64,000 nucleotides of DNA from Streptomyces sp. NBC_01381 (GTDB lineage Bacteria > Actinomycetota > Actinomycetes > Streptomycetales > Streptomycetaceae), in NCBI RefSeq assembly GCF_026340305.1, contig NZ_JAPEPI010000001.1, positions 1,426,001-1,490,000 on the forward strand. Direction: 5' to 3'. The position numbers and the translations under genes are program-made. The notes below the pieces were generated by a model. The model had not been told where the DNA came from. It did no database searches and saw nothing but the letters and a program-made list of their open reading frames with translations. Each line of letters begins with the position of its first letter. Positions within the stretch are counted from its first letter, which is position 1. Positions 45,055-52,377 of the stretch are shown in pieces.

Positions 45055-45939
45055 CTAGAGAGCGGTGTAAGCGGCACGCCAGGCCACGGTGAGGCGGGCG
45101 GATGCGGTCGGGTCGGACGCGGTCCAGCGGATCTCGCTGCGGCCCGGAGGCAGGCGGAAGGCCTCAAGGTTCGACGTGGTGGCGACACTGCCGCCGTTCT
45201 CCCGGGTCACCGTGCACCGGCCGGGCCGGGTATCAACCCGCGCCCACTGCCCGGCGGCGAGCGTCACGTTCAACGCCACCGAACGCCCCGTCTCCACATG
45301 CGTAATGACCGGGTTGGCGCACGGCCCATACACGGTGACCACCGGGTGCGTGTCGAGGTTCCCGACGTTGGTGACCCAGCCCGGCCGGTTCTGCCCCGAC
45401 GGATTACCGCTCGTCACACGGATCGGAGCCTGCACGGGCGCGGTGAAGCCACCGCCGGACAGCCAGCCCAGCCGCAACTGCTCCCGCTCCTCGACATCGG
45501 CGTAATACCGCGGATCGGTCGCGAACTCGATGTCCAGAGGGATCCACCCGAGGGCGGCCTTCTCCCACGAATCCTCCAGCTTCCGCAGCCTGCCGAACAG
45601 GACACGCACCGGGCTGCCAGGCCACTTGATGCGCAACGGCATCACCGCCCCACCCCGCGTACGGACCCGAGGGTCATCAGCGGCCAACTGGAGGTCGGCG
45701 AGTATCTGCCGTCCAGCAGCGGGATCGCCGGGGGTCTTGATGGCGCAGTCGATGCGGATGGTCCGCGCCTCATACCAGTCCGGGGCCGGCCACGCCCCAT
45801 CAGCGTTCGGCCGCTCCACCAGTTCCCCGCGCACCGCAGGCCGGGCCAGGCCAGTGATCTCCGCGATCGGAATCTGCGTGTTGTGGCCGAGCCGGATGCC
45901 ACCGAACTCGAGCTGAAAGTCCTTGAGTTCACTGCTCAT
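45055..45939 (-). CDS. Distal tail protein (Dit-like)
   Basis: 294 residues. MSSELKDFQLEFGGIRLG opens like siphovirus Dit proteins; DWYEARTIRIDCAIKT, PLRIKWPGSPVRVLFGRLRKLE and a galectin-like C-terminal half (GNLDTHPVVTVYGPC) follow. The ATG overlaps the tape-measure stop (ATGA). It forms the ring joining the tail tube to the tip. Confidence 0.8.
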   Translation of the reverse strand: MSSELKDFQLEFGGIRLGHNTQIPIAEITGLARPAVRGELVERPNADGAWPAPDWYEARTIRIDCAIKTPGDPAAGRQILADLQLAADDPRVRTRGGAVMPLRIKWPGSPVRVLFGRLRKLEDSWEKAALGWIPLDIEFATDPRYYADVEEREQLRLGWLSGGGFTAPVQAPIRVTSGNPSGQNRPGWVTNVGNLDTHPVVTVYGPCANPVITHVETGRSVALNVTLAAGQWARVDTRPGRCTVTRENGGSVATTSNLEAFRLPPGRSEIRWTASDPTASARLTVAWRAAYTAL

Positions 45940-48900
45940 CGCAGGACGCCTCCTCGGCGGGCCCGGCGCATCTGATAGGCGACCGTGGAGGCAATGTCGT
46001 CGGCGTTCGCTCCGGCGCGAGTGACGTGGATGGTCTGCTGGCCGATCGCCGGTGCCTGATGCACGACCACGACCCGCGCACGCCCATCGGTGGCATTGAC
46101 GAGGCGGCGTGGAGCCAACCCGCACCCGAACCGGTCCGCGGTCTCGGCAAGGACCCCCGTAGCCCGGCCCCGCTTCGCAGCAGCGTGCGGAATGTAGGAC
46201 TCGCCGCCCGTCTCCGGCTCCGCGAACTTGATCAGCCCACGCTGAGAGGAGTAGACGCCCGGCTCCCAAACGCCGCCGTCGGCATACGCCTTGCCCGCGT
46301 TGGCCTTGACGAGATCGGCGAGGAACCGGTCGGCCTTGCCCGTTTTCTTTATCTGCCCCTTTGCCTTGTTGGCGATCTCGATGAGCCGGTCCTCGTCGAT
46401 CCCCGCCGACTCGGCCACCGAATGAATGCCACGCCCCTTGGCCAGGGCACCGATGAGCTTCACGAAGTCGCCGAGCTGATCCGAATCGAGAGTCTTCCCG
46501 GCAGCCTGGGCCGCGCTGTTGGCCTGCTTCGCCTTCTTCTTGTCGCGCACGGCCTGCGCGGCGAGCACCTCAGCGTTCTCGTCGCCCTGCTCGGCCAGCC
46601 GCGTCGCCAAGGCCCCGTACCCGCTGGAGGCCAGTTTGGCGAGGTTGTTCTGGAAGGTCGTGGAGTCCTTGACCGCGTTCTGGAGCTGGCCTGTGTAGTC
46701 GCCCAGTGTCGCCTTCGCGGTGCCGGCGAGCTTGGTGAGCTGCGCGGCCATCGACTTCACGTACTTGTTGGAGCCGCGGGCCATCTTGCGGGTGAGCGCA
46801 ACACCGTCCTCACCCATCTCCTCCAACGCCTTGGCGACATCGGTACCGGCCCGTCGGGACACGGTCGCAAGGTCGTTGCGCCAAGCCGAGGCGGTACGCA
46901 CCGAGCGGCGCAGGTTCCGCTCGAACATGCCCAGGTCGAAGTGCTCGTTGCCGCCCTTGCCCTTGCGCTGCGACTTGGAGACGACCTCAGAGATCCCGAA
47001 CCCGGAATCACCGAGGGGCTGGTACGACCAATTCGACAACCCGCCGCCCGCGTACCACTCGACATCGCCGCCGAAGCGCCGCACGACCTCCTCGACGATG
47101 GCCTTACTGCGGGGCCGCTTGCCTGCGGCCAACGGCACGTAGGCCTCGCCGTGTGTCTCGGGCTCCGCCCACACCCGCATCGCACCGGCCGGTGCGATCT
47201 GCGCGACGTGGTTCTCGCGCACACCACCGTTCGCATAGAAGTCGAGGACAGACCCACGCGCCTGCGGGGCCTGGATCAAGTCCGGGACGCCGTTGCCGTC
47301 CCGGTCTGAACTCGTCGGCTTCAGAAAGACTCCGATGCCGATTGACCGGCCACTGATCCCATTGATCGCGCCCTGGATTCGGCTCGCCGCGTCCGTAGCT
47401 CCGGTCGTGGGCACGGTGACGGTGACGTTCTTACTGCCCGGCACCTCGGCGATCTTGAAACCGAGGTCCTCAAGCTGCTTACGAGCCGCCCCAGTCGGCG
47501 CGCTCACCGTGACGCTCTTACCGCCCGGGACACCGGCAATCTTCTGCTTAACCGCCTCCAGGCTGTCGATCGTCGCCTGCGTCGAAGCAGTCACGTTGAC
47601 GTGCTTGCCGCCCGGCGTCTGCGCGATCTTCGCGATCAGGGAGTCCAGATCCGTGCGCGCCAGGTCCGTGGGGGCGGTGACCTCCACCCTGCGGTCTTTC
47701 AAGTCCTTGATCTTGAAGCCGAGCTTCTCAAGATCCTCGCGCGCATCGTTCGACAGCGTGGAGATCGTGATGGTCTTCTTGTCCGGCTGAGCCTTCAACG
47801 CCTGCTGCACAGCGATGAGTTCAGCCATCGCCTCGTCCATGCCGGCCGTCTGCAGCAGGATCGACACCTGCGAGGGGACCAGACCGGCGTTGTCGGCGAG
47901 CTTCGCGGCCGCCTCGGCGGACAAGCCGAAGCCCTCAGCAGTGGAGATCGCCGAATCGCGGGCCGTCTCCATCTGCTTCTGCGCGGCCTGCAACGCCTCC
48001 GGAACGGACTTCCCGTTCGCCTCCGCGTACTGGTAGGCCGCGAGCGCAGCATCTGCGGAGTTCGTCGACAGGCCCTGCAGCAGGTCGTACAGCTTCTGCC
48101 CGTTGCGGGTGACCGTGGACAGCGAACCATCCATGTTCAACAGGGACTTGCCGTACCCCTGCGCGTTGTCGACGCCCCCCTTCAACGCCTCGGCCGCATC
48201 CGACACCGACCGGTTCAACCGTGCCTCGGCCGCGGACAGATTCACCGAGCCGCCAGCCAGGATGTTCAGCGCGTCATGGAGGGCTCGGGCACGGGTATCG
48301 GCGTCTGCCGTGGTGTCCGACAGGCGGCGCATCGCGTCAGAGAACTTCCCGAACGGACCCACCGCATCGCCTGCGGACCGGCCCGCGGCACCATTCACGT
48401 CAGCAAGATCGCGGGCATCCTGCACGGCCTCGGACATCTCACCCTTGACGGAGCCGAGGGCCTCCGCAGCATCATGTGCGCGCTGGCCCACGTCGTTGTA
48501 CATGACGCCGCCGCCCTTGACCGGCTCCAGGTTGATCGCGGCGACGTCCTCCATGCGCTTCTGGAGCTGTGCCAGGCCGTCGTCCTGGCTGAGGTAGGCG
48601 TCCGTGAGCTGCTTGATGGGCACCCCGGCCGTCTTCATGACGTCGACCAGGCGCTCCTTGCCGTCGAGGACCTTGGTGTCCATCAACTGCTGCGCGGCTG
48701 CGGTACGGACGCTCTCTGTCACGGCGCCGTTCGACTCGCGCAGCGCCTGGGTGAGGCTGCTGATCCGCGACTGGTGCTCGGCCGCCGCCTGGGCGGCTTT
48801 CTGCTGGTGGGAGGCGAGCATCGACAGCCCGACGCCTGCGGCGGCGAGCGCCACACCCCACGGTCCGCCGAGTGCACCCATGAGGCCGCGGGCCGCTCCA

Positions 48901-50888
48901 CCGACACCAGTGCCGATCGCACGCGCCACTCCGGTGATCGGTCCGTTGGCGTTGCGGAACGCGGATGCCATCTGACCCACTACCGGAATGCGGGTCTGCA
49001 TCACCGCGAGGGCCTGGCCGATCCGGCCGATGGACTGTCCCTGCGCGGCTGCGAGTGTCTGCTGGAGTTTCATCTGGTCCCCGAGGGACCGATATGCGCC
49101 CACGACGGGCCCGGACACGGTCTGTCCGAGCCGCGACATCATGGGTGCGACACGGCGCGCCATGAGCATCGCGATGATCGCCGTCTGTACTGGCCCCGGC
49201 AGCGCCCCGAACCCGCGCACCAGTCCGGCCACGACATGCCCGATCGGGACCAGCGCACCCGACACCGTGCGAGCAGCCGACGAGACCAGGTTCAGTGCGG
49301 TGACGATGATGTCGAGCGCGGTCCCGCCCGCATCGGCCTCCTCGGCCACATCGCTGATGGCGTCGGCGACGGGGGAGACGGCGGAGCCGACGTTGCGCAG
49401 GATGTCGATGACGGCGCGGCCGCCGTTGATGAGGACGTTGAACCCCGCAGCTGCGGCGTCGAAGGCAAGGTCCTTCAGCGGCCCGCCCAAACCGCCCAGC
49501 GAAGCACCGACCTCGGCAAAGCCCGCCGAGACAGCCTTGGACACCGACGGGCCGGCCAACGTGTACAGGTCGTGCACGTAGTCGATGGCGGCCGCCATGC
49601 CGGGAGTGGCAGCGGCCATCCCGGAGGTCAGGAGGCGTGTGACCTTCTCCAGGCCGGGTGCGGCCGCCGTGTAGAGGACCTGCCCGGTGTTCGAGGCTTG
49701 GGTCTTGAGCTGGCTGACCGCACCCGCCAGCCCCTTGGTCTGCGATGCGGCGATCTCCCCGGCCGCGCCGGTACGGGCGATGGCCGTGTGCATCTGGTCG
49801 AAAGACTCGACACCCTGGTGCGCCAGCGCCGACGCACCCGCGAGTGCAGGCTTGCCGACCACGTCGGCGAGGGAACCCAGGAAGTCCTTCTGAGACATCC
49901 GGTTCTGGGCCTGCTCGAAGCCCTCGATGACCGTACGCAGGCCCTTGAAATTGCCCTGCGTGTCCCACGCTTCGATGCCGAGCTCGGCCAGGCCCCGCTT
50001 CATCCGGGCCGTGGGCCGGGACAGGTTGGTGAGCATCCCGCGCAGGGACGTGCCTGCCTTGGAGCCGAGGATGCCGGAGCGGGCCAGCATCGCCACCGCA
50101 GCCGACGTGTCCTCGATCGAGATGCCCAGCTGGGCGGCGACCGGGCCCGTGTAGGACATCGCGTAGTAGATGTCCTGCAGCCCGCCAGAGGCGGCGTTCG
50201 CCGACGCTGCCAGCACATCGGCGGCACGGCCTGCGTTGTTCGAGCTGAGCCCGAACTGGTCCATGACGTCGCCCAGATACCGGGCGGCGTCCGCAGCCGA
50301 GAGGTTGTCGGCCGCGGCGAGCTGCATCGCAGCCCGCGCGTTCGCGATGGACGACGTACTGGTCTGGCCGGCCTTGGCCAGCTCCAGCATCGAGTCCGCG
50401 GCCTTCGCCGCGGACGTGCCGGGAATCTTGAGGTCGGCGCCAAGCTCGCGGGCCTTCGCCGCGGCCTGCACCATCTCCAGGCCGGAAGCGTTGGTGACCG
50501 CGCCCCACTTGTTGATCGCACGCTGGTACTCGTTGCCTTCTTTCGCGATCTCCGCGAGCCCGGCAACAATTCCTCCGCCGACCAACAGGCCACGGAGGTG
50601 GTGGGCTTCCTGGCGGGCGCCGAGCAGCCCGTGACGGAGCTGCCGCATCGACGTATGCCCGTCCGCACCAACACGGCGCAGACCAGCACGAGCACGATCG
50701 GAATCACGGGTGAGAGCCCGCAGCCCGTTAGAAGAGCCGCGGGCACCTGCCCCGATCTGGTTGAGATTCCGGTTGAGGGAGGCAGTGTCGCGGCCCAGGC
50801 CGCGCATAGCGCGGGAAGCCTGCCGGATCTCCGACAGGAGATGGGAGAAGTCCGCTCGCGCCTGAACGCTGAGCGTGTACGACGACAC
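45936..50888 (-). CDS. Tail tape measure protein
   Basis: 1650 residues from a GTG. N-terminal coiled coil (residues 1-120), then the TP901 core domain (TNASGLEMVQAAAKARELGADLK, DMHTAIA-like, GILGSKAGTSLRGML), hydrophobic membrane-like stretches around 480-600, repeated small beta units (KKITISTLSND, RVEVTAPTDLA, KHVNVTASTQ) and a C-terminal MRVWAEPETHGEAYVPLA-type element that occurs twice. The gene sets tail length; at about 1.5 Angstrom per residue, a tail near 250 nm would be expected. Confidence 0.92.
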   Translation of the reverse strand: MSSYTLSVQARADFSHLLSEIRQASRAMRGLGRDTASLNRNLNQIGAGARGSSNGLRALTRDSDRARAGLRRVGADGHTSMRQLRHGLLGARQEAHHLRGLLVGGGIVAGLAEIAKEGNEYQRAINKWGAVTNASGLEMVQAAAKARELGADLKIPGTSAAKAADSMLELAKAGQTSTSSIANARAAMQLAAADNLSAADAARYLGDVMDQFGLSSNNAGRAADVLAASANAASGGLQDIYYAMSYTGPVAAQLGISIEDTSAAVAMLARSGILGSKAGTSLRGMLTNLSRPTARMKRGLAELGIEAWDTQGNFKGLRTVIEGFEQAQNRMSQKDFLGSLADVVGKPALAGASALAHQGVESFDQMHTAIARTGAAGEIAASQTKGLAGAVSQLKTQASNTGQVLYTAAAPGLEKVTRLLTSGMAAATPGMAAAIDYVHDLYTLAGPSVSKAVSAGFAEVGASLGGLGGPLKDLAFDAAAAGFNVLINGGRAVIDILRNVGSAVSPVADAISDVAEEADAGGTALDIIVTALNLVSSAARTVSGALVPIGHVVAGLVRGFGALPGPVQTAIIAMLMARRVAPMMSRLGQTVSGPVVGAYRSLGDQMKLQQTLAAAQGQSIGRIGQALAVMQTRIPVVGQMASAFRNANGPITGVARAIGTGVGGAARGLMGALGGPWGVALAAAGVGLSMLASHQQKAAQAAAEHQSRISSLTQALRESNGAVTESVRTAAAQQLMDTKVLDGKERLVDVMKTAGVPIKQLTDAYLSQDDGLAQLQKRMEDVAAINLEPVKGGGVMYNDVGQRAHDAAEALGSVKGEMSEAVQDARDLADVNGAAGRSAGDAVGPFGKFSDAMRRLSDTTADADTRARALHDALNILAGGSVNLSAAEARLNRSVSDAAEALKGGVDNAQGYGKSLLNMDGSLSTVTRNGQKLYDLLQGLSTNSADAALAAYQYAEANGKSVPEALQAAQKQMETARDSAISTAEGFGLSAEAAAKLADNAGLVPSQVSILLQTAGMDEAMAELIAVQQALKAQPDKKTITISTLSNDAREDLEKLGFKIKDLKDRRVEVTAPTDLARTDLDSLIAKIAQTPGGKHVNVTASTQATIDSLEAVKQKIAGVPGGKSVTVSAPTGAARKQLEDLGFKIAEVPGSKNVTVTVPTTGATDAASRIQGAINGISGRSIGIGVFLKPTSSDRDGNGVPDLIQAPQARGSVLDFYANGGVRENHVAQIAPAGAMRVWAEPETHGEAYVPLAAGKRPRSKAIVEEVVRRFGGDVEWYAGGGLSNWSYQPLGDSGFGISEVVSKSQRKGKGGNEHFDLGMFERNLRRSVRTASAWRNDLATVSRRAGTDVAKALEEMGEDGVALTRKMARGSNKYVKSMAAQLTKLAGTAKATLGDYTGQLQNAVKDSTTFQNNLAKLASSGYGALATRLAEQGDENAEVLAAQAVRDKKKAKQANSAAQAAGKTLDSDQLGDFVKLIGALAKGRGIHSVAESAGIDEDRLIEIANKAKGQIKKTGKADRFLADLVKANAGKAYADGGVWEPGVYSSQRGLIKFAEPETGGESYIPHAAAKRGRATGVLAETADRFGCGLAPRRLVNATDGRARVVVVHQAPAIGQQTIHVTRAGANADDIASTVAYQMRRARRGGVLR

Positions 50889-50945: not shown

Positions 50946-51287
50946 CTACCGCCGCACGGTGCGCGGCACCAGGCCGATCCGCACCCCGTACCCGTCCAGG
51001 CCGTCGGGCACCTGGTCCTGCTCGTGCGCGATCAGCTCACACCCAGTGCAGCGCACACTCGTGGTGACGTACGCGAACCGGTCACCACCCTGCTCCTCGT
51101 CCCACTCCGAGGCCCGGGTCCCGCACTGATCGCACACCGTCCGCTGATACGCCACGAACGACAGGGCCTTCGCCCGGTCCAGCTCAGTCCAGCGGCCATC
51201 ACCGGCGCCGAGGAACTGCGAATGCGGGATGCCCCAGCGGTCGCACAGCTCCAACTCAGTACGGAGCTGTACGTCCGTGATCAGCCT
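50946..51287 (-). CDS. Tail assembly chaperone GT extension, made by -1 frameshift
   Basis: 113 codons with no ribosome site or good start, in the -1 frame relative to the upstream chaperone. Reading through the slippery site GGGAAAA (51293-51287) joins VELGK to RLITDVQLRTELELCDRWGIPHS. The extension contains CDQCG and RCTGCE. The G plus extension product would be about 309 residues. This is the lambda G/GT arrangement, immediately before the tape measure. Confidence 0.75.
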   Translation of the reverse strand, partial: RLITDVQLRTELELCDRWGIPHSQFLGAGDGRWTELDRAKALSFVAYQRTVCDQCGTRASEWDEEQGGDRFAYVTTSVRCTGCELIAHEQDQVPDGLDGYGVRIGLVPRTVRR

Positions 51288-51874
51288 TTTCCCAGCTCCA
51301 CCGTGCTAGTTCGGACGATCTGCTGGGCCTGCCACGCCGCCGCGAACAGGGCATTCGACTCGGCGACCGGCCACGAGTCGAGGAGATCCTGGGCGTCCTC
51401 CTCGCTCATGCCGTCCACGGTGTTGTGGTCGTCGTCGCGCTCGATGTGCGCGGCGGCTATCAGCGCGGCGGGGAACGTTTCCGGGTTCCAGGCATCCCCG
51501 TCCTCGGCCTGCGCCTCGGTCGGAGGGAACCTCTTGATCAGCCCATCGAGGATCGGCCGGGGCAGTGCCTTGAATGTCAGCTCGATCGAGAGGTTGTCGA
51601 AGAACTCCTGCGCATCCTCGACCTCCTCTTCTGCCTTCGAGGTCGCGTCACTGTGGGCGCGGCCGTTCTCCGCATCCGCCATCCGGCAACGGGCCAGCTC
51701 GCGCAGGGTCTCGTCCAGGTGCCGCTTGGCGTCCTGGTCGTCGCAGATCACCAGCGTGTACTCGGGCAGCTGCCGGGCACGGAGCCGGGCCAGCTTGGCC
51801 GCCCAATGAGCGTCACGGGCAACAGCGTTCGTCGGCAGGGCAGGAGCAGTCTTGGTCTCCGTGGACACCGGCAT
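51281..51874 (-). CDS. Tail assembly chaperone G
   Basis: 197 residues. It lies between the tail tube and tape measure, the chaperone position. Acidic helices (EEEVEDAQEFFDNLSIELTFKALPRPILDGLIKRFPP) resemble chaperones of Streptomyces siphoviruses. The 3' end carries CTG GGA AAA GGC TGA, with a canonical slippery heptamer just before the stop. The ATG overlaps the tail-tube stop by 1 bp. Confidence 0.75.
   Translation of the reverse strand: MPVSTETKTAPALPTNAVARDAHWAAKLARLRARQLPEYTLVICDDQDAKRHLDETLRELARCRMADAENGRAHSDATSKAEEEVEDAQEFFDNLSIELTFKALPRPILDGLIKRFPPTEAQAEDGDAWNPETFPAALIAAAHIERDDDHNTVDGMSEEDAQDLLDSWPVAESNALFAAAWQAQQIVRTSTVELGKG
51287..51293 (-). other. -1 slippery heptamer GGGAAAA
   Basis: The codons are CTG GGA AAA, so the heptamer G GGA AAA is in the correct phase for tandem -1 slippage, 6 bases before the TGA. 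Confidence 0.75.
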
Positions 51875-52377
51875 CACTTCTCGACCTTCGGCGCCGCAGC
51901 GGCGGCGGCCGGGACGGCGGCGTCCTGGGTCGGCTTCTCTGTGATCGAGAAGTTCACGGTGAACTTGGCCGCTTCGTTGTCCGTCGAGTAGTTCGGCGAC
52001 CGCGAACCGATACGTACCGGGAAGACGTCCATGGACCGGGAGCCCGCGACGTCGCCCTTGCGGAGGAAGACGACCCAGCCGGTGTCGTCCTTCTTCAGCA
52101 ACTGCTCGATCTCGTCGGAGACCTTGTCCTCGTAGAACCCGAGGGAGGAGTCGTCTGCCTGATCGGTGCCGGGGATCTTCGACTCGAACGTCGAGCCGAG
52201 GTCGGGTGTTTCGATGGCCTGGTTCTGGAGCGTCCAGCCGTCGATCGCCGCGATCGCGTCGGTCAGGTCGGTGCCGGCTGTGAGCTCGGCGCGGGTGGGG
52301 ACGTGTCCGGTGTCGGTGACGGTCTTGAGCCACAGGACGCGGGTCACTCCGCGCCGGGAGAACTTCTTTACCTGCAA
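51874..52377 (-). CDS. Major tail tube protein
   Basis: 167 residues. KKFSRRGVTRVLWLKTVTD, TRAELTAGTDLTDAIAAIDGWTL, ESKIPGTDQADDSSLGFYEDK and GDVAGSRSMDVFPVRIGS are the standard strand set of actinophage major tail proteins; the Ala-rich end is a short linker. A stop lies 45 bp upstream in frame, so only a TTG at 52377 can start it. That start is weak, and the N-terminus may have been altered by the neighbouring insertion. Confidence 0.82.
   Translation of the reverse strand: MQVKKFSRRGVTRVLWLKTVTDTGHVPTRAELTAGTDLTDAIAAIDGWTLQNQAIETPDLGSTFESKIPGTDQADDSSLGFYEDKVSDEIEQLLKKDDTGWVVFLRKGDVAGSRSMDVFPVRIGSRSPNYSTDNEAAKFTVNFSITEKPTQDAAVPAAAAAAPKVEK

Follow-up and report, generated by a model that had tools for sequence, protein, structure and literature searches.

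Organization of the tail module

The window, by which we mean the whole stretch of DNA that was analysed (64 kb), is part of the 9.87-Mb genome of Streptomyces sp. NBC_01381 and harbors a phage tail module on the minus strand. Matches to PHROGs and Pfam gave the gene order major tail protein, G, T and tape measure protein. The gene for the major tail protein (51874..52377, minus strand; phrog_2491, E 4e-36) has a TTG start as given by the ORF tool, and its stop overlaps the ATG start of the following gene in the sequence TGATG. This following gene, G (51281..51874, minus strand), encodes an upstream tail assembly chaperone of 197 amino acids, which matches phrog_19248 (E 8.6e-31) and has a fold match to phage tail assembly chaperones (see below). 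T (50946..51287, minus strand; phrog_19456, E 4.7e-47) is an extension in the -1 frame and consists of 113 codons followed by a TAG. The tape measure protein of 1650 amino acids (45936..50888, minus strand; phrog_10780, E 6.3e-115; PF10145, E 1.5e-43) starts 57 nt past the stop of T. In PHROGs, phrog_19248 and phrog_19456 are two separate families, both of unknown function.

In phage lambda the G/GT chaperone genes are located before the tape measure gene and carry a shift site of the XXXYYYZ type, the heptamer GGGAAAG. The position of G and T is the usual place for such lambda-type chaperones. Because the tail module is located in a contig of 4.66 Mb, we call it part of a Streptomyces-type prophage, known here from its tail genes in the chromosome.

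Predicted slip site and reading frames

The end of G reads CTG GGA AAA GGC TGA. The slippery heptamer G GGA AAA (51287..51293, minus strand) is in phase with the G frame, as the initial annotation had stated, and is followed after 3 nt (GGC) by the TGA stop of G (51281..51283, minus strand); the distance of 6 bases that had been given is correct only if the stop codon is counted and does not hold as a spacing. The -1 frame opens just past one TAG (51308-51306) and stays open up to another (50948-50946, minus strand). After a slip of -1, reading would continue with AGG CTG ATC ACG GAC and comprise 113 codons (RLITD...TVRR) up to the latter TAG, in agreement with the earlier claim of 113 residues without a stop as far as 50946. 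The predicted G-T fusion is a polypeptide of 309 amino acids. Lambda-type pairs share this arrangement of a -1 frame that stays open past the end of G and an XXXYYYZ heptamer placed in phase within the overlap.

The heptamer GGGAAAA occurs once in the 64-kb window, both strands taken together. As shuffling predicts 1.96 copies, finding one is not informative in itself. What is unusual is where it lies and in which phase: when the codons of G were shuffled 5000 times, 0.94% of the trials had an in-phase XXXYYYZ sequence within the 25-nt overlap, and 0.02% had GGGAAAA there.

Conservation of the heptamer

Relatives were sought with the extension alone, using a query that begins after the heptamer, in IMG/VR (35 loci, and also the best 80 of 105 relatives), same-genus genomes, genome_contigs and phage records. 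The extension was matched in 51 of 392 same-genus genomes, a count that includes the source genome itself and several weak, distant matches. In genome_contigs, 22 loci with the extension were present in named genomes, all Streptomyces, and the phage records contributed ZL12 and a weak match to EvePickles. The 191 loci obtained included 182 that align from the start of the extension, and merging of those with identical 300-nt junctions left 130 distinct junctions, i.e. the window and 129 relatives; the flank filter removed 0 loci. The junction of the window also represents L001 and L039, and one of the 130 junctions, L037, has just 81 nt of extension. The identity of the extension protein to that of the window has a median of 58% and a lowest value of 49%.

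Direct reading of the seven bases at each junction revealed GGGAAAA at the same place in all 130 distinct junctions, down to relatives of 49% protein identity, and in all 83 junctions left once the set was thinned to <85% nucleotide identity. A lack of the slippery sequence in homologues, which the initial annotation had named as evidence against its reading, was thus not encountered in this set. The spacing between heptamer and G stop is 3 nt in 122 of the 130 junctions, 21 nt in seven and 6 nt in one. Elsewhere in the last 150 codons of G (73 sequences), GGA makes up 17 of 347 other glycine codons and AAA 8 of 307 other lysine codons. Since both codons are rare in the remainder of the G tails, the site is held at the nucleotide level, beyond a mere requirement for Gly-Lys.

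Nine loci do not align from residue 1-3 of the extension and stand outside the 130 (L003, L036, L083-L088 and L110). The heptamer is present in three of these, which are records of a single replicon, and absent in the six distant loci L084-L088 and L003, which have other heptamer-like sites in the overlap. The five loci L084-L088, from the same genus and with 30-37% identity, all have CCCTTTC in phase in the overlap, which is likely to be an exchanged shift site, as judged from sequence. This CCCTTTC is found about 42-45 nt before the aligned extension. The three records that retain the heptamer (L036, L083 and L110) belong to one 92.6-kb replicon in which the extension frame is broken near codon 18; this may be a broken chaperone extension, from which no whole fusion would be made, or a sequencing error. 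Additionally, seven same-genus genomes (G025, G036, G090, G180, G320, G374 and G387) gave two extension matches each, some of them weak or with an internal stop, which suggests an additional related prophage or a copy in decay. In G374, both match pieces come from a single copy whose frame is broken.

Start of the extension and alternative explanations

The first in-frame ATG, GTG or TTG of the extension is the TTG at codon 12 (51254). No Shine-Dalgarno match was found before this codon (duplex energy +0.5 kcal/mol, as compared to -10.7 for the tape measure start and -4.7 for the G start), which bears out the earlier statement that the extension is without a ribosome site. The CTG at codon 2 (51284) has a weak Shine-Dalgarno-like GGAG 11 nt upstream in the window (duplex -7.6), and GGAG is present within 10 nt before the heptamer in only 18 of the 130 junctions. 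The extension thus appears to be without a supported independent start, the sole weak alternative seen being the CTG with its poorly conserved Shine-Dalgarno-like stretch. Residues R1, L2 and R9 of the extension are present in 72 of 72 sequences and D5 and E11 in 99%. At D5, R9 and E11, the codons show a level of synonymous variation similar to, or above, that in the remainder of T. The pattern indicates that residues 1-11, which in the window precede the first ATG, GTG or TTG, are conserved as protein.

These observations bear on the possibility that T is a separate gene with a weak start of its own (TTG 51254, CTG 51284 or re-initiation past the stop of G) and that the overlap is ordinary gene packing. 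The gene is indeed annotated in this way in ZL12 and in four of six plasmid records, phrog_19456 is a family of its own, and the CTG with its upstream GGAG could serve as a start in the window. The annotated starts disagree among relatives, being placed at codons 84, 12, 51 and 80 in the four plasmids and at codon 20 in ZL12; the other two plasmids list no gene for the extension, in a gene table that is described as incomplete. The match of T to phrog_19456 begins at residue 12, i.e. at the mis-called TTG. A false TTG start from simple gene calling had been predicted, and the public records with their internal starts fit this prediction. For a separate gene an invariant heptamer would be unexpected, yet it is found in every one of the 130 junctions, and residues 1-11, which lie before the TTG, are conserved as protein. 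We consider a separate T gene very improbable.

Still less probable is a fusion that arises through transcriptional instead of ribosomal slippage. The site does contain a run of A, but this run is just four A after three G, and transcriptional slippage usually needs longer homopolymers; the invariant XXXYYYZ phase suits ribosomal slippage. A mutation or sequencing error that splits one gene can look alike in a single genome with two abutting frames, and as an explanation for G and T this is refuted to the point of being negligible, since 130 distinct junctions of numerous assemblies share the arrangement and the extension is conserved at the protein level.

The gene order, the lack of a supported start, the conservation of residues 1-11 and the fold match all agree with the lambda G/GT design that had been proposed from the sequence, and the invariant heptamer further supports it. 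On these grounds, G and T of this Streptomyces-type prophage almost certainly form a pair of tail assembly chaperones of the lambda G/GT type, expressed via programmed -1 ribosomal frameshifting.

A Shine-Dalgarno sequence was also considered as an upstream stimulator of slippage, as GGAG lies two bases before the heptamer in the window; with its restriction to 18 of the 130 junctions this candidate was dropped.

Downstream RNA structure

A hairpin (51238..51277, minus strand) that begins 9 nt past the heptamer was compared with synonymous controls and is a possible clade-specific stimulator. In the window, the 42-nt stretch with this hairpin has a folding energy of -26.4 kcal/mol, as compared to -14.0 in the synonymous controls. 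The stretch also reaches p<0.05 in L006, L007, L040, L042, L043 and L044; this level was not reached in the near relatives L004, L005, L045 and L046. Resampling of synonymous codons gave, for the 11 sequences of the near group (>=73% identity; the identity cut was set after the energies had been seen, and L037, a 27-residue fragment without the hairpin, is included), a mean z of -1.57 after the site and +0.67 in the control region. The other 62 sequences, which are more distant, gave a mean z of +0.64 after the site, i.e. less structure than their synonymous controls, and -0.51 in the control region; three of them reach p<0.05 for structure after the site. Over all 73 sequences, p<0.05 was obtained in 10 after the site and in 9 in the control region. 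When 60-nt windows were examined in 72 sequences, the mean z was -0.40 just past the site and between -0.16 and +0.21 elsewhere.

Among 11 distinct near relatives, 91.5% of the cells of the hairpin pairs are paired, as compared to 29.7-41.2% if the pairs are slid by 1-3 columns. Two-sided covariation was not found in these relatives (0 pairs changed on both sides, no excess over shuffles); single-side changes keep some of the pairs, and RNAalifold picked a different fold for the region. A family-wide downstream stimulator was rejected on the basis of the 10 versus 9 significant sequences, the lower structure in distant relatives and the lack of two-sided changes. The hairpin is at best an aid specific to one clade; it was noticed post hoc and occurs mostly in close relatives.

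Protein folds and domains

Structure modelling made use of 29 sequences of G and 32 of T. The resulting model of G (pLDDT 88.5, pTM 0.76) was matched, among viral protein models, by two forms of the chaperone of Arthrobacter phage Molivia (204 amino acids, E 2.3e-6; 358 amino acids, E 3.3e-5) and by the tail assembly chaperone of Arthrobacter phage Faja (E 1.4e-4). The TM scores of these matches, normalized to the query, are moderate (0.41-0.45). As modelled, G would resemble known tail assembly chaperones in its fold. Comparison of the G model with solved structures gave no match at E<=0.001; 3klu (YqbN) aligned with 106 residues spread over most of the model (Z 7.8), tied with unrelated entries. 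In curated Pfam the only match of G was MMADHC (E 0.16, below the cut-off) and in NCBIfam there was none; T had no match above the cut-off in Pfam or NCBIfam, so that neither protein falls in the curated tail assembly chaperone families of these collections.

The extension contains two C-x2-C pairs (51039..51134, minus strand; residues 52, 55, 80 and 83), and these four cysteines are invariant in 45 aligned extensions, the window included. The pairs suggest a zinc ribbon or metal-binding T domain. This stays a suggestion because the T model is weak (pLDDT 72.9, pTM 0.38) and the zinc-finger matches in Pfam and NCBIfam are below threshold. The fold search with T gave no match at E<=0.001, the best one being again the Faja tail assembly chaperone (E 6.6e-3). 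When solved structures were searched by sequence, no convincing relative emerged.

Relation to known frameshifted chaperones

Frameshifted G/GT chaperones have been described as widely conserved in long-tailed phages (PMC5009743). Similar to lambda gpG/gpGT, G and T overlap in two frames, the predicted shift falls shortly before G ends, and a longer minor product is expected (PMC5009743). The ratio given for lambda is 30:1 (PMC5009743). Unlike lambda, the heptamer in the window is GGGAAAA, and T carries the C-x2-C...C-x2-C pair. The heptamer GGGAAAA has been published as the shift site for TM4 (PMC4626039), and for Microbacterium phage Bush it is given as a -1 shift site in the tail assembly chaperones (PMC11749239); the feature that these two phages share with the window is the heptamer. 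Tail assembly frameshifts have also been reported for the Streptomyces phages Salutena (PMC8407740) and Sycamore (PMC8407750). The site of Sycamore is described as a variant of the CGGGGGCG of Mu (PMC8407750), as opposed to GGGAAAA here.

A tblastn search with G or T against 50,697 phage records (E<=0.01) retrieved only ZL12 and EvePickles. ZL12 is a described plasmid-phage (cited in PMC4487206). Its proteins pZL12.53c and pZL12.52c are homologs of G (38% identity) and T (57%), with the same heptamer and the same 3-nt spacing, and were deposited separately as hypothetical proteins with no link between them; the second begins at codon 20 of the extension. The paper PMC4487206 annotates pSLE1 after pZL12, and the words 'frameshift' and 'tail' are absent from its text. 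In Arthrobacter phage EvePickles, gp16/gp17 are annotated as a joined tail assembly chaperone with a weak homolog of T (32% identity, E 7e-3), and the overlap has CCCAAAA in place of GGGAAAA. If CCCTTTC and CCCAAAA are shift sites, the heptamer was exchanged while the arrangement stayed. Literature searches, the coverage of which mostly excluded subscription journals, retrieved no paper on the shift site of the G/T family. G and T are a further case of a well-known kind of frameshifted chaperone, with the fusion missed in the records examined; the least ordinary features are the invariant AAA together with two lysine tRNA species (see below), the hairpin of the close relatives and the CCCTTTC of the distant branch.

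Proposed mechanism and host lysine tRNAs

Most ribosomes would read G as far as its TGA. A minority would slip when tRNA-Gly occupies the P site on GGA and tRNA-Lys the A site on AAA; both tRNAs would move back one base in tandem (GGA AAA to GGG AAA), and translation would continue with AGG CTG ATC for 113 more codons to yield the 309-residue fusion. By analogy with lambda, the two products would be formed at a set ratio, as the initial annotation had proposed; G would coat the tape measure protein, and the less abundant G-T would recruit the major tail protein.

The tRNA genes called in the source genome include one each for tRNA-Gly(UCC), tRNA-Gly(CCC) and tRNA-Lys(UUU) and three for tRNA-Lys(CUU). 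The 69 tRNA family matches all lie inside stretches that were run through ARAGORN; L258 has no clear anticodon and C1:967785-967856 was not called. According to a review, the sequence A_AAA_AAG is very slippery with the sole tRNA-Lys of E. coli, and of the two lysine tRNAs present in Thermus, one should bind AAG tightly and dissociate poorly (PMC5009743). By the logic given for Thermus, a host with two lysine tRNAs should favour AAA at the A site. We infer such a preference here, where AAA is found in 130 of 130 junctions and the tRNA set of one host was read; among the other lysine codons of these G gene ends AAG accounts for 97%.

A tentative explanation, which we hold to be somewhat doubtful, is that AAA is frozen since the CUU tRNA-Lys re-pair poorly, that the rarer UUU tRNA sets the chaperone ratio and that the hairpin of the near relatives tunes it further. 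The tRNA-Lys(CUU), with three genes, would decode AAG and form only poor pairs with AAA once it has slipped; the tRNA-Lys(UUU), with one gene, would read AAA and could re-pair. If this is true, a silent change of AAA to AAG would abolish slippage in Streptomyces and not in E. coli. The G/T family provides a clean natural test of the constraints that the lysine tRNA set of a host places on slippery sequences.

Plasmid carriers and annotation

With G and T read as a frameshifted pair, two genes that are common in Streptomyces (51 of 392 genomes, 34 PLSDB plasmids) acquire both a function and a fused product, and two halves that PHROGs keeps as separate families of unknown function are brought together. 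The 34 plasmids with the extension comprise 33 from Streptomyces and one from Kitasatospora. Those listed (30 of 34, for example L191-L196) are about 85-152 kb in size and typed as non-mobilizable. Six plasmid records (85-152 kb) all contain the heptamer. In these six records and in ZL12, G and T are hypothetical proteins, the extension is sometimes unlisted, and a joined G-T product is present in none of the seven. Since an annotated tape measure protein or a long hypothetical protein adjoins the extension, the plasmids look like plasmid-phages related to ZL12; the neighbour is annotated as tape measure protein in three of the six and as a long hypothetical protein in the other three.
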